Of a stretch of DNA of 53,071 bases, positions 3,843 through 7,501 are shown piece by piece. The DNA is from Ignavibacteriales bacterium (lineage in GTDB: Bacteria > Bacteroidota > Ignavibacteria > Ignavibacteriales > Melioribacteraceae), in contig JACOUS010000008.1 in the NCBI GenBank assembly GCA_016177735.1, forward strand, positions 1 to 53,071. Direction: 5' to 3'. The translations under genes and the position numbers were made by a program. The notes under the pieces are model-generated. The model had not been told where the DNA came from. It was given only the letters and a program-made list of their open reading frames with translations, and searched no databases. The stretch's first letter is position 1. Each line of letters starts with the position of its first letter.

Positions 3843-4298
3843 TCATTTGTACTTTTTCGATAAGAAATAATCGATGCTGAATTTTCCGGCGCCGTTAATA
3901 AGCAGAACAAAAAGGAGCAGAATATAATAGAGAGGAATTTCAAATCCGTTGCTGCCGGCTTCAAATCCGTTTGACCAATGCACGGTTGTAATTGCAACAA
4001 TCATGTTGATTATCAACGGTATCGAAATTAAACGCGTGCCTAAACCGAGAGTAAGCAATGCAACTCCGGCAATTTCCGTTGATGCCGATAAATATGCATT
4101 CAAGCCCGGCAAAGGAATTCCGAGTTCTGCAAACCACTGAGCAATGCCGTTAATGTCCGCCCATTTGTTTAATGCCGGATTTAGAAATCCGTAAGCCAGC
4201 ACAAAGCGTATCGCCAACAAAACTAAGTTTCTTAATCCGGCAGTTCGTTCAGCCGCGCGGAAATATTTATCGAGTAATATTGCTTTCAGTTCGTTCAT
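3843..4298 (-). CDS. DoxX-family membrane protein of the bufferin locus
   Basis: A 151-residue protein with about four hydrophobic segments and the DoxX-type start (LLAIRFVLAYGFLNPALNKW). Its start codon overlaps the stop of bufC by four bases (ATGA), so the two are translationally coupled. DoxX-like proteins are a regular last member of HvfABC/bufferin operons, where they are called HvfX. Their role is not settled; a link to redox chemistry or copper stress at the inner membrane is inferred from context. The C-terminus is short and basic (DYFLSKKYK), facing the cytosol by the positive-inside rule. Confidence 0.85.
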   Translation of the reverse strand: MNELKAILLDKYFRAAERTAGLRNLVLLAIRFVLAYGFLNPALNKWADINGIAQWFAELGIPLPGLNAYLSASTEIAGVALLTLGLGTRLISIPLIINMIVAITTVHWSNGFEAGSNGFEIPLYYILLLFVLLINGAGKFSIDYFLSKKYK

Positions 4299-5053
4299 TT
4301 TTTGAATCCCGCTAAAAATTTTCTTTCGAACATCTCATTCAGAAACGGAATTGTTTTTTCGAGCAGCGTTTTTTTGTCAGCCGGGAATATTTTTTCTGCT
4401 TCATCGAGAATGGATTCAAGCGGCTGGGATTTTTTCTTTACTTCTTCGATCAACCAAGCGAAATAAACCGAGAGATCGACAAACCTGACTTTAAAAGTTT
4501 CCGGCTCGCGGAAAAGAAGAACATAAAATTCTCCTTTATCGCTTCGGGAAATTTCATTTGCGTTTTTTAAGTGAACCGGGTAACCAAGTTTCAAAAGTTT
4601 GTGCTCGGCGTTAAAAAGAATAACGTCTTTCAAAAGATCGCCGCGTTTGTTGTAATGGGAAAGTTCGGCGTCTTCCATCATGTAAACTTCTATCTCGCTC
4701 CATTCGAACAAAAGCAGATCGAGCAGATGAGGATATTTTTTCTCCAGCTTTGTTTTTGAATTCAGAACGTACTCATAAAATTCAAAAGGCATTTTCCAGA
4801 TTTGATATGATTGGCACGCATGCGTTCCGAAAAAATTATCGATAAGTTCTTCCCAATCATTTTCTTCAAGCAGATCATGCGTAATTGGAAACGCCGACTG
4901 CAAACTATCGTTCACAACATTGAAAACGAGTCTGCGGTAATGATGCACGCGGTTGTTGGTTAATCCTTCGAGATGCGGAAGAATTCCGGTTCGCACGTAA
5001 CTTGCAAAACCGCTCTGCTGTGTTTGTGTAAATTTATGCAACTGCGCGTTCAT
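4295..5053 (-). CDS. bufC: BufC/HvfC-type partner protein (DUF2063)
   Basis: A protein of 252 residues. The N-terminal half carries the DUF2063 putative DNA-binding domain with the family pattern GFASYVRTG, RVHHYRRLVFNVV and SAFPITHDLLEENDWEELIDNFF. The C-terminal half resembles the region that contacts the MNIO enzyme. In the characterised systems BufC forms a complex with BufB and guides the peptide substrate rather than binding DNA. Its start overlaps the end of bufB by 20 bases and its stop overlaps the DoxX gene, so the three are one translational unit. Confidence 0.88.
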   Translation of the reverse strand: MNAQLHKFTQTQQSGFASYVRTGILPHLEGLTNNRVHHYRRLVFNVVNDSLQSAFPITHDLLEENDWEELIDNFFGTHACQSYQIWKMPFEFYEYVLNSKTKLEKKYPHLLDLLLFEWSEIEVYMMEDAELSHYNKRGDLLKDVILFNAEHKLLKLGYPVHLKNANEISRSDKGEFYVLLFREPETFKVRFVDLSVYFAWLIEEVKKKSQPLESILDEAEKIFPADKKTLLEKTIPFLNEMFERKFLAGFKK

Positions 5054-5879
5054 AGCTCCATGCCTTTCTGCAAATGTTTTCCATTGTGATCATTTCGTTC
5101 TGCAGTTCTTCAAGTTCCGGAATGTTGAAATCGCGTTCGAGCAGAACCGGAACACTCTTCGGAAGTTTGTTTACGGTGAATTCAAATAGATCGTAAACGG
5201 GAGAAATAATCGGTTCACTGTGTGTATCGATGATGAGATCGGGTTCAACTTGTTCGTGTCCCGCCATGTGAATGTACTCAACCGTATCGAGCGGAAGACC
5301 TTCGATAAATTTTTTCGTATCGTATTTGTGATTGAACCCGTTGACGTAAACGTTGTTCACGTCGAGCAGAAGATTGCAGTCCGCTTCTTTTACAATTGCA
5401 TTGATGAATTCGAGTTCGGTCATCTCTGCTGCAACCGGCGTGTAGTATGAAACAATTTCGATTGCAATTTTTCTTTCGAGAAAATTCTGCACGTCTTTAA
5501 TTCTGTTTGAAATATGTTTGACCGCATCCCACCGGAACGGGATCGGAAGAAGATCGTAGAGATGTGCATTATCGCATTTCGAATAACTGAGATGCTCGGA
5601 ATAAATTTTTATATCGTAGCGCTGTAGAAATTCTTTCACGCGTTTTAGGAAATCCCAATCGAGCGGATCGGGACTGCCGATGGAGAGAGAAAGCCCGTGC
5701 GAATAAACAGGATATTGTTCAGCGGCGCGTTCAAAAATTCTTTTCCAGTATCCGCCGATTCCCATCCAATTTTCCGGAGCCGCTTCAATAAACGCCGGTG
5801 TTAAAATTTCTTTCTCGAAAAAATCTTCTGCAAAATCTTTCCGGAAACCGATGCCCACATGTTTCATTCTTCTTTTCAT
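5034..5879 (-). CDS. bufB: MNIO (DUF692) peptide-modifying oxidase BufB
   Basis: A TIM-barrel multinuclear iron enzyme of 281 residues from the ATG at 5877-5879, which has AAGGTG upstream; ATG at 5901-5903 is possible and the longest frame is not credible. Likely metal and active-site residues are seen in YSHGLSLSIGS, YSEHLSY, IEIVSYY, LLLDVNNVYVN, YIHMAGHE, DTHSEP and LLERD, all standard for DUF692. The family oxidises cysteines of a precursor peptide; in bufferins it makes thiooxazole-type copper-binding groups. The substrate here is almost certainly the upstream Cys-rich BufA. A hairpin lies in the gap between the two genes. Confidence 0.9.
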   Translation of the reverse strand: MKRRMKHVGIGFRKDFAEDFFEKEILTPAFIEAAPENWMGIGGYWKRIFERAAEQYPVYSHGLSLSIGSPDPLDWDFLKRVKEFLQRYDIKIYSEHLSYSKCDNAHLYDLLPIPFRWDAVKHISNRIKDVQNFLERKIAIEIVSYYTPVAAEMTELEFINAIVKEADCNLLLDVNNVYVNGFNHKYDTKKFIEGLPLDTVEYIHMAGHEQVEPDLIIDTHSEPIISPVYDLFEFTVNKLPKSVPVLLERDFNIPELEELQNEMITMENICRKAWSYERAVA

Positions 5880-6039
5880 TGGAACACCTTTAAGCAAATT
5901 CATGTTGTGAAAAAAATTCTTCTCATTTATCGCACATAAACAAAAAAATACTGCATCTACAAGAAAATAAAATAGCACACAGATCTAACACTTGTACCGC
6001 TTTACGATAGATCGAACTGATAAAAACGGATAAAAAAAT

Positions 6040-6090
6040 CAGTTCAAATCCCCCGCATAGCGGGGCAAGGTGTTTAATCAGTTTGAACTG
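6040..6090 (-). terminator. Hairpin between bufA and bufB
   Basis: CAGTTCAAA (6040-6048) pairs with TTTGAACTG (6082-6090), and inside it CCCCGC pairs with GCGGGG (6051-6065). The stem lies in the 232-bp gap after the bufA stop. It could attenuate read-through or protect the bufA message, giving more peptide than enzyme; that role is inferred. Confidence 0.5.
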
Positions 6091-6111
6091 CGTGCTATTA
6101 ACGCAGAGCAA

Positions 6112-6594
6112 TTATTTTTTCTCGGTTGTCTTGGTTTTGTCGGCTTCTTTTTTGGTATCCATTTTTTTATCGCCGCACTTTCCTTCGCCGCATTTGTGAT
6201 CTTTAGCTTTGCTCTCGGATTTTTTTACATCTGCTTTGGTCGAATCTTTTCCGCCGCACATGCCTTCGCCGCACTTGTGGTCTTTGGCTTTGCTTTCGGC
6301 TTTTTTATCGCCTCCGCATTTTCCTTCACCGCATTTACCTTCTTTGGCTTTGCTCTCGCTTGTGGTTTCTTTTTTCTCACTCTTGTTTCCGCATTTCAAA
6401 TCGAGTGCAGAGCCGTGAGACGGAACGCCGCCAAGCAGCGATGTTCGCACTTCGGCACCGGAGCCGAGATGTGTGTAGCTAAATAAATTTTCTGCTTTAA
6501 CCGGCTGTGCCGAACCGACACCGAATATCGCACCGGCTATTAACGAGCTTGCCAGTAAAGCACGCTTTGCATTCTTTTTATTTCTTTCTTCCAT
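6112..6594 (-). CDS. bufA: Bufferin precursor peptide BufA with EGKCG repeats
   Basis: A 160-residue exported peptide. It has a basic start, a hydrophobic stretch (residues 12-30) and a cleavage region near VKA-EN, then the segment LFSYTHLGSGAEVR. Cysteines occur at 68, 88, 93, 108, 113, 135 and 140. Six of them form three pairs of the type KCGEGKCG or HKCGEGMCG, separated by Lys/Ser/Glu-rich linkers containing the repeated word ESKAKDHKCGEG. Such EGKCG motifs are the modification sites of MNIO enzymes, and the product binds copper outside the cytoplasm. AGGAAGG lies ahead of the start. The paired, repeated layout is longer than the simplest bufferins. It is the first gene after the sigma/anti-sigma pair. 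Confidence 0.88.
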   Translation of the reverse strand: MEERNKKNAKRALLASSLIAGAIFGVGSAQPVKAENLFSYTHLGSGAEVRTSLLGGVPSHGSALDLKCGNKSEKKETTSESKAKEGKCGEGKCGGDKKAESKAKDHKCGEGMCGGKDSTKADVKKSESKAKDHKCGEGKCGDKKMDTKKEADKTKTTEKK

Positions 6595-6671
6595 ACAATT
6601 ACCTTCCTTTTATTATTAAGTGGACAGTTATAAAGACGGGATGTGAAGTTAAACCTTACAGCGGTAAAAAA

Positions 6672-6920
6672 TTATTTTGACAGCTCATTTAATTTTTTGT
6701 CCATTTCTTCTTGTTCGGCGCCGGATAGCGGCTCTTCCGAAGAAATATTTTTGATATTAACGGACAAAAATTTGTTCTGCTTCTCGAAGAATTTGCAAAA
6801 ACTGCAAATCATAAGGTGTAAGGCAAGTTTTATCCTTTCGGAAAAAGAAATTTTCCTTTCCTCTTTTTTAATAATTGCGAGTGTGGCTTCTCTGCACGAT
6901 ATCATTAAACTTTCCATCAT
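6672..6920 (-). CDS. Small zinc-finger anti-sigma factor
   Basis: About 82 residues starting at ATG 6918-6920 (or the next ATG), immediately after the sigma factor stop; a longer frame overlaps that stop by 16 bases. It carries the pattern SCREATLAIIKKEERKISFSERIKLALHLMICSFC, summarised as a C...HxxxCxxC zinc site typical of ZAS/zf-HC2 anti-sigma factors. It has no membrane segment, so it is probably a cytosolic sensor. It would hold the adjacent ECF factor until metal or redox stress releases it. The signal sensed is inferred. Confidence 0.75.
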   Translation of the reverse strand: MMESLMISCREATLAIIKKEERKISFSERIKLALHLMICSFCKFFEKQNKFLSVNIKNISSEEPLSGAEQEEMDKKLNELSK

Positions 6921-6922
6921 AA

Positions 6923-7501
6923 TTATTTCACAAACCATTTTTTTTCAATACATGCTCTCAACTGCAATTTTGCGCGGTGGATCACCACCCAATAGTTTGA
7001 CGCACTGATCATCAATTCCTTACATATTTCATCGGACTCTTTTTCATCGAGATATTTAAGCGTAAAAGCTATTCTTGTCAGTTCGGATAATTTCTGCAGA
7101 CACTTATTAAGTATCTCAAAAAACTCTTTTGATTCCACCGGGTTTTTGTAATCGGCATTCCAATTGTGCGGTGCTGTTTCTTTTTTCCAGTGACCGGTTT
7201 CATCAAAATAATTTTCGAATGCTTCTTCGCATTCATCGAGTTCTGTGAATAATTGATTTGTCTTTTTGCGGTAATGGTCTATTATTTTATTCTTGAGAAT
7301 TATGAAGAGCCAGTTTTTTTCCGAGACTTCGCCTTTGAAGTTTTCCAAATTTTTGTATGCTGCAAAAAAAGTTTCCTGAACAATATCTTTTGCCGCTTCT
7401 CTATCGTTCACTCTTTGCAGCGCAAAACGGAAAAGCTGTTCGGAATAATTCTTAACCCAATTTTTAGGATTCAGCAAATTAGTTTCTTTCTTGTTTATCA
7501 A
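6923..7501 (-). CDS. ECF sigma factor of the bufferin locus
   Basis: 192 residues from TTG at 7499-7501; a second TTG at 7475-7477 would give a start at LNPKNWVKNY. Region 2 is visible (FALQRVNDREAAKDIVQETF, then WLFIILKNKIIDHYRKK), as is region 4 (ELTRIAFTLKYLDEKESDEICKELMISASNYWVVIHRAK). ECF factors of this type, paired with a small Cys-containing anti-sigma factor, commonly precede DUF692/HvfABC loci. The start overlaps the VOC gene by 23 bases, so the sigma gene may be read from the upstream transcript as well as from its own promoter. Confidence 0.85.
   Translation of the reverse strand: MINKKETNLLNPKNWVKNYSEQLFRFALQRVNDREAAKDIVQETFFAAYKNLENFKGEVSEKNWLFIILKNKIIDHYRKKTNQLFTELDECEEAFENYFDETGHWKKETAPHNWNADYKNPVESKEFFEILNKCLQKLSELTRIAFTLKYLDEKESDEICKELMISASNYWVVIHRAKLQLRACIEKKWFVK

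Follow-up and report, generated by a model that had tools for sequence, protein, structure and literature searches.

The stretch of DNA analysed here, referred to as the window (53,071 nucleotides (nt); contig JACOUS010000008.1 of an Ignavibacteriales bacterium), carries at positions 3,843 to 7,501 a six-gene locus built around a cysteine-rich precursor peptide of the EGKCG type and its putative modifying enzyme, an MNIO. This peptide operon probably stands inside a conserved regulon for envelope oxidation, governed by an extracytoplasmic function (ECF) sigma factor and a zinc-binding anti-sigma (ZAS) factor, whose promoter motif is also found before genes for the methionine-sulfoxide reductases MsrA and MsrB. 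The operon itself is ordinary for its family; the new part is the proposed shared regulon together with a predicted feedback promoter hidden in the sigma gene. Among the top-ranked matches of a literature search in a library that lacks most subscription papers, we found no report of the regulon or of the intragenic promoter in Bacteroidota, nor any work on this peptide class in that phylum; the string "Bacteroid" is absent from the available text of PMC12452194 and PMC13097082, and PMC12636315 covers Bacteroidota, but for the ChrH kind. The six open reading frames (ORFs) all lie on the minus strand, and each matches a Pfam or NCBIfam family:

6923..7501, minus strand: ECF sigma factor, 192 residues (Sigma70_r2 and r4_2 above the Pfam cut-offs; TIGR02943 168.8 bits, cut-off 162.2)
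6999..7024, minus strand: predicted sigma-dependent promoter TGTAAGG-N15-CGTC inside the sigma gene (conserved position, codon bias)
6672..6938, minus strand: small anti-sigma factor, 88 residues (NF052368 57.7 bits, cut-off 50)
6634..6660, minus strand: predicted promoter of the peptide operon, TGTAAGG-N15-CGTCT (pattern match; conserved before the precursors of relatives)
6112..6594, minus strand: precursor peptide of the EGKCG/HvfA type, 160 residues (NF050137 37.7 bits, cut-off 19.5)
5034..5879, minus strand: MNIO maturase of the HvfB type, 281 residues from its likely start (NF003818 371.8 bits, cut-off 360)
4295..5053, minus strand: DUF2063/RRE partner protein of the HvfC/NGO1945 type (PF09836 and PF22106 above cut-off)
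3843..4298, minus strand: DoxX/HvfX membrane protein (PF07681 above cut-off; NF050144 123.2 bits, cut-off 80)

The sequence ahead of the precursor gene at 6634-6660, TGTAAGGTTTAACTTCACATCCCGTCT, fits the promoter consensus of Neisseria sigma-E, GTMAGBWTT-N12/13-CGTCTAAH (PMC2893595, PMC3240639): GTAAGGTTT-N12-CGTCT (6634-6659) agrees with it, and the last three bases of the -10 box are TTA, not AAH. We compared the locus with the best 80 of 119 MNIO relatives obtained from a scan of genome contigs, 51 of which have a sigma gene. A relaxed form of the motif (GTMAG..CG[TA]) occurs within 120 nt before the precursor in 36 of the 51 relatives with an adjacent sigma gene (shuffles: mean 0.23, maximum 2) and in 6 of the 29 without one (mean 0.18, maximum 2). 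For two of these 29 the contig stops at most 1.3 kb away from the precursor. The strict form (TGTAAGG..CGT) was found in 23/51 and 0/29, respectively.

The same motif recurs away from the operon. In the genome of the window, TGTAAGG-N14-16-CGTCT has five matches (the reversed pattern has two), which lie before the precursor, msrA (at 104 nt), msrB (at 26 nt) and a membrane protein gene, the fifth being a match with a 16-nt spacer on contig C1 that was treated as chance. Pattern matches numbered 32 in the genomes of 12 relatives (reversed pattern 21) and 29 in a second set of eight (reversed pattern 20). These 12 and 8 genomes had been picked for TGTAAGG upstream of the precursor, with no selection on the msr or the intragenic site, and the gene context of all 66 forward matches was assigned by hand, for two of those in genome G304 from sequence and spacing. 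The 50 matches with a 15-nt spacer comprise 19 before a precursor (a number that partly reflects this selection), 14 inside a sigma gene before the anti-sigma gene, 12 before msrA or msrB and 5 elsewhere; none of the 16 matches with 14- or 16-nt spacers lies at the precursor, intragenic or msr sites. The 12 strict msr matches are spread over 11 of the 21 locus-bearing genomes (the window's own, three other Ignavibacteria and seven Chitinophaga), and those of the second set, five msrB matches, all belong to Chitinophaga (5 of its 8 genomes). Counted from the gene side, 28 msrA/msrB genes in 13 genomes have the strict motif upstream in seven cases and the relaxed motif in two, where about 0.002 strict matches would be expected in that upstream DNA as estimated from the reversed-pattern rate; the 28 exclude one profile fragment among 15 MsrB matches, and three of them have less than 200 nt ahead of the open frame. 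As a control we searched 14 genomes of the same family without an MNIO for the strict pattern only: none has it before msrA or msrB, 12 have no strict match at all and the other two a single one, located within an ORF on the opposite strand, the reversed pattern giving 20 matches. The strict motif 77 nt before the membrane protein gene of the window's genome (L093 1501-1527; G000:C29:44580-44606) marks a possible further regulon member, the first 110 residues of which have no Pfam match.

The second promoter is predicted within the 3' end of the sigma gene, where it would serve the anti-sigma gene; its -10 box in the window is CGTCAAAC (CGTCA, not CGTCT). Among 52 sigma genes, that of the window included, 36 contain the motif in strict and 41 in relaxed form at this place, compared with means of 0.93 and 1.18 and a maximum of 5 in 300 synonymous-codon shuffles. 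Its position is conserved as well, the motif starting 101 nt before the end of the ORF in 33 of 41 cases and ending 71-83 nt before the anti-sigma ORF in 31 of 40. When 95 testable codon columns were compared over all 52 genes regardless of the motif, the four most biased were those of the motif: Lys161 is AAG in 45/45 (31% expected), Ser167 TCG in 22/28 (16%), Cys160 TGT in 50/50 (63%) and Ser168 TCT in 28/45 (21%). That all 41 relaxed sites (41/41) have NCG as the codon at the -10 box is a consequence of choosing sites by the motif, and this count is given no weight. In the 300 nt before the sigma gene the strict motif was found in none of the 52 and the relaxed motif in one, unlike in Neisseria, where the whole operon is positively autoregulated (PMC2893595, PMC3240639). 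Here the brake rather than the engine appears to carry the promoter, and since the anti-sigma but not the sigma gene has one, the response is predicted to limit itself. A comparable arrangement has been found by experiment in Corynebacterium glutamicum, in which a SigH-dependent promoter inside sigH drives only the anti-sigma gene rshA (PMC3489674); that system shares the intragenic sigma-dependent promoter but differs in sigma factor, promoter sequence and phylum, and lacks a peptide operon.

The sigma ORF has a listed TTG start, its exact start being uncertain; the protein passes TIGR02943, and the label ECF group 13 itself is taken from PMC7907618. The anti-sigma factor, which has no clear membrane segment, carries the ZAS motif C15-X25-H41-X3-C45-X2-C48 and fits the published spacing of soluble ZAS proteins, C/H-X23-26-H-X3-C-X2-C (PMC7907618); the motif is retained in 51 of 52 anti-sigma factors, that of the window included. 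The preliminary description had singled out the locus for having its own sigma/anti-sigma pair. The pair is indeed present, but a dedicated sigma/ZAS pair with such an operon is already known from Haemophilus, Neisseria and plasmids of Pseudomonadota. In Haemophilus, RpoE2 and the 67-residue ZAS anti-sigma factor HrsE govern msrAB and an operon of DoxX, DUF692-type and DUF2063 genes that is induced by hypochlorous acid (PMC7907618), the same kind of sigma/soluble ZAS pair with the targets predicted here, and the hvfABCX operon of nontypeable Haemophilus influenzae encodes a signal-peptide precursor with three Cys-pair repeats, an MNIO, an RRE partner and a DoxX protein as here (PMC13419390). 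However, rpoE2-hrsE lies beside msrAB, whereas in our genome the sigma and anti-sigma genes are next to the peptide operon and apart from msrA and msrB; the window has in addition a lone cysteine, the LGSG leader motif and the predicted intragenic promoter of the anti-sigma gene. Neisseria sigma-E (rpoE) and MseR govern their own six-gene operon, which likewise includes a ZAS anti-sigma factor, and have msrA/msrB as the main outside target (PMC2893595, PMC3240639). A Pseudomonas aeruginosa plasmid record even has the same six-gene order (sigma, zf-HC2, small ORF, DUF692, DUF2063, DoxX); an Acinetobacter plasmid has the same gene set rearranged, and a Moraxella plasmid has the set with no anti-sigma gene annotated in that stretch and an IS4 gene separating the MNIO from the partner.

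Concerning the peptide genes, the unbroken one-strand order from sigma to DoxX given in the preliminary description is borne out, as is its remark that the locus lies outside Pseudomonadota, on which the texts of PMC12452194 and PMC13097082 centre. With an MNIO, a cysteine-rich precursor bearing a signal peptide and an ECF sigma/zinc anti-sigma pair of its own, it also appears to be a modification-type locus, as proposed there. The precursor contains the following features:

6508..6594, minus strand: probable Sec signal peptide, about residues 1-29 (by eye; hydrophobic stretch, Kyte-Doolittle maximum 1.54)
6445..6468, minus strand: leader motif LGSGAEVR, residues 43-50 (conserved among the precursors of relatives)
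6391..6393, minus strand: lone Cys68 ahead of the repeats (from the sequence)
6172..6342, minus strand: three Cys pairs, EGKCGEGKCG / HKCGEGMCG / HKCGEGKCG, residues 85-141 (from the sequence)

The three Cys pairs described earlier (C88/C93, C108/C113 and C135/C140) are thus present, but the peptide has seven cysteines rather than six, C68 being the extra one, and NF050137, the model of the KCGExKCG domain, matches four stretches of it. The leader pattern LG[STN][AG]x2-4R occurs in 80 of 81 precursors, that of the window included, and in 79 of the 80 motif-bearing precursors the first cysteine follows 10-26 residues past it; LGSGAEVR could possibly be the site at which the partner protein recognises the precursor. 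In five Chitinophaga precursors (L042, L051, L062, L066, L074) the core cysteines stand in KCS, KCA or KCV rather than KCG contexts, with fewer than two [KR]CG motifs each.

The nearest solved structure to the MNIO is 3BWW (E 5.7e-70), and 3DEE is a weak nearest match of the partner (E 0.0025). An alignment of 81 MNIOs shows no variation at the Asn, Asp and His assigned to the third iron site (residues after PMC13419390). Residues of FonB (PMC13097082) were placed on the MNIO through 3BWW, a mapping that we infer: the Arg-Arg pair has an invariant first residue and a second that is Lys in 51 MNIOs, this one included, and Arg in the other 30; in the Asp-Phe pair, all 80 MNIOs with letters at that place retain the Asp, and 74 the Phe. 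Residue 142 (5454-5456), which follows a putative iron-ligand Glu, is Ile in 48/81 and Asn in 32/81 (Asn in 3BWW), and among the relatives it is not associated with the presence of a sigma gene (30 Ile, 20 Asn and 1 Val with sigma; 17 Ile and 12 Asn without). The MNIO ORF as opened runs from 5978; its start is probably at 5879, an ATG with AAAGGTG ahead of it, since the alignment to relatives begins at about residue 34. The MNIO gene overlaps the partner gene (5034/5053), and the partner gene that of DoxX (4295/4298), by a few bases each.

Since the scores lie above the cut-offs of the HvfB, HvfX and KCGExKCG models and the MNIO residues are kept, the locus is, as judged by its sequence, of the EGKCG (HvfABCX/oxazolin, "captophorin") kind. 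The preliminary description had called it a complete bufferin locus. A bufferin in the strict sense (DUF2282 or 6/12-Cys) is rejected on cut-offs, as the MNIO reaches 266.7 bits with the BufB model NF050167 (cut-off 310) and the precursor has no Pfam match up to E 0.1 and hence no DUF2282; "bufferin-like" is nevertheless fair, because PMC12452194 names the class Buf_EGKCG/oxazolin. The MNIO, the DUF2063 partner, DoxX and the signal peptide are shared with bufferins (Buf1/Buf2), and sigma factors are known in Buf1 loci, but besides the missing DUF2282 and the BufB score our locus has a ZAS anti-sigma factor in place of NrsF. With the captophorins and fontiphorin (FonABC; the EGKCG class of PMC12452194) it shares the EGKCG repeats, the MNIO with a PME1 partner and the Asp-Phe motif; these are, however, known chiefly from Pseudomonadota, and our MNIO has Lys as the second residue of the Arg-Arg pair.

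By their titles the 80 relatives belong to Bacteroidota or Ignavibacteria lineages, except one that is named "bacterium" only. Every one of the 80 has a precursor match; a DUF2063 gene is present in 79, an anti-sigma gene in 51 and DoxX in 47; the five-gene order is found in 50 and all six genes in order in 33, so that the six-gene arrangement is not due to chance. Within the family of the window's genome an MNIO occurs in 4 of 57 genomes and 3 of 35 genera. The 29-position KCGExKCG model, with matches in 3/296 genomes, is too insensitive for measuring spread across the phylum.

A sample taken by the sigma factor instead gives a wider view of what stands behind such promoters. In a sample of 198 genomes of the phylum, TIGR02943 finds some match in every genome, as is usual with ECF sigma factors, and seven exceed the cut-off. 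Among 30 loci with at least 126 bits to this model (three of which, L198, L200 and L201, repeat the MNIO set), 25 have an adjacent ZAS anti-sigma gene and four an EGKCG precursor within 1.5 kb. The intragenic motif is present in 8 (strict) and 13 (relaxed) of them (shuffle maxima 2 and 3), and 11 have a relaxed motif within 500 nt after the sigma gene (shuffle mean 0.19, maximum 1). Behind this post-sigma motif we found EGKCG precursors at four loci (L198, L200, L201 and L222) and, by eye, MsrA at two (L206, L220) and Lys/Met-rich peptides with signal peptides at two more, one Cys-free (L197) and one with a single C-terminal Cys (L211). A DsbD-like membrane protein follows at L196 (Pfam score 21.3, below the cut-off of 27.1), a YHS-like protein (25.2, below 30.3) and then a DM13 protein above its cut-off at L208, and no clear gene at L213. 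The sigma match of L197 has an internal stop, and no anti-sigma gene was found alongside. The two loci with Lys/Met-rich peptides in the precursor slot recall the MrpX/Msr hypochlorite system (sigF/nrsF), in which a Met-rich peptide and a periplasmic methionine-sulfoxide reductase are under sigma/anti-sigma control (PMC4623255); that system differs in its type of anti-sigma factor, and the peptide of the window is Cys-rich and MNIO-associated. Because the slot holds MsrA, YHS-like or Lys/Met-rich proteins elsewhere, we read the operon as cargo of an envelope-oxidation regulon, and a role as an oxidant sink deserves consideration beside copper buffering.

From these features a working of the system can be inferred. 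The small cytoplasmic zinc anti-sigma factor would hold the sigma factor until its own Cys/zinc site is disturbed by oxidants and perhaps by copper as well. The sigma factor thus freed might then read GTAAGG..CGTC promoters before the precursor, before the genes of exported MsrA and MsrB and within its own gene ahead of the anti-sigma gene. The DUF2063/RRE partner would bind the precursor and the MNIO oxidise the KCG cysteines, presumably to the 5-thiooxazoles found in relatives; the exported peptide could bind copper, absorb oxidant or do both, with the Msr enzymes repairing methionines meanwhile.

Several observations weigh against a shared regulon for envelope oxidation. Over the 21 genomes the total of 66 matches compares with 43 for the reversed-pattern control, and within the window the motif has two copies, both in the locus, a number equalled in 19 of 100 shuffles. 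Neither the strict nor the relaxed motif stands upstream of 19 of the 28 msr genes, 10 of the 21 genomes have no strict msr match (the completeness of the 20 relatives' genomes being unstated), and the msr evidence is confined to Ignavibacteria, including the window's own genome, and Chitinophaga, therefore to few independent lineages. The three Pseudomonadota plasmid sigma genes have no intragenic motif. As to the class, the equivalog cut-offs of HvfC and HvfA are not reached, the partner scoring 126 bits with NF050145 (cut-off 142), though both its Pfam domains are above cut-off, and the precursor 37 bits with NF050188 (cut-off 95). Peroxide, diamide and singlet oxygen each failed to induce meningococcal sigma-E (PMC2893595, PMC3240639), and an rpoE2 mutant of H. 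influenzae has wild-type oxidant resistance in vitro (PMC7907618). Copper, in turn, is bound by the EGKCG peptides of relatives (PMC13097082, PMC13419390), and sigma-F of Caulobacter, which has a different anti-sigma factor and governs DUF692/DUF2282 genes, reportedly responds to chromium and cadmium. These last two points would favour a periplasmic copper buffer like the bufferins, with copper or thiol-active metals displacing the anti-sigma factor and the msr genes co-regulated because copper oxidises, an account that is possible, if on balance doubtful: the msr genes are the recurrent targets of the motif outside the operon, no copper-export gene was recognised by eye among the genes behind the matches, and MsrA or Lys/Met-rich peptides occupy the same slot at some sigma loci. 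The defence of the envelope against copper put forward in the preliminary description is only half supported: copper binding is known solely for the peptides of relatives, and the promoter shared with msrA and msrB points towards oxidative damage.

A sharper form of the envelope-oxidation reading takes the sigma/ZAS pair and the intragenic anti-sigma promoter as a general module of Bacteroidota and Ignavibacteria whose cargo slot can be filled in different ways (by an EGKCG or Lys/Met-rich peptide, by MsrA, or by a YHS-like or DsbD-like protein). The thiooxazole peptide would then serve mainly as a renewable oxidant sink, a cysteine counterpart of MrpX, with copper binding secondary. We consider this extension rather unlikely as a whole. 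The intragenic motif might, instead of a promoter, reflect some other constraint acting where the sigma gene ends, such as protein sequence, mRNA structure or slow codon divergence, given that 11 of the 52 sigma genes lack even the relaxed form and that most of those sampled come from one lineage. Both boxes and their spacing are nevertheless equal to those upstream of the precursor, the bias at Lys161 and Ser167 exceeds that in the rest of the gene, and the relaxed motif recurs in the 13 of 30 sigma genes sampled regardless of an MNIO, so we hold a cause other than a promoter to be improbable. Finally, the copy in the window could be decaying, with lowered expression of the maturase, owing to an insert between the precursor and MNIO genes:

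5971..6099, no strand assigned: fold-back element of about 130 bp with inverted ends (inverted repeat arms; fold z -5.1)

The gap measures 232 nt compared with a median of 69 nt in the 80 relatives, the fold is strong, an MNIO is rare in the family and the intragenic -10 box deviates in its last base. But none of the six ORFs is interrupted, the active-site residues are retained, a terminator scan called none in the gap, and seven of the 80 relatives also have gaps of at least 128 nt, one of them longer than that of the window, which makes decay very improbable.

An RNA element in this gap was considered and rejected, because the strong fold is explained by the fold-back element, of which five partial copies elsewhere in the genome form a small dispersed repeat family. 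Rfam gave no match at gathering score over the whole window, and scans for sigma-70 promoters and terminators gave no excess.

If the shared regulon for envelope oxidation holds, a conserved promoter links the abundant EGKCG/thiooxazole peptides to methionine-sulfoxide repair, and Chitinophaga offers a direct way to decide between copper and oxidant. This further suggests that the stress regulon of Neisseria and Haemophilus, promoter included, is common to Bacteroidota. The codon-level footprint within the sigma gene would be that of a promoter expected to turn on this gene's own inhibitor.

Behind DoxX, on the same strand, follow genes for a protein with a penicillin-binding/class-D-beta-lactamase-like transpeptidase domain (PF00905; 2722-3495) and for a MOSC-domain protein (1774-2634).

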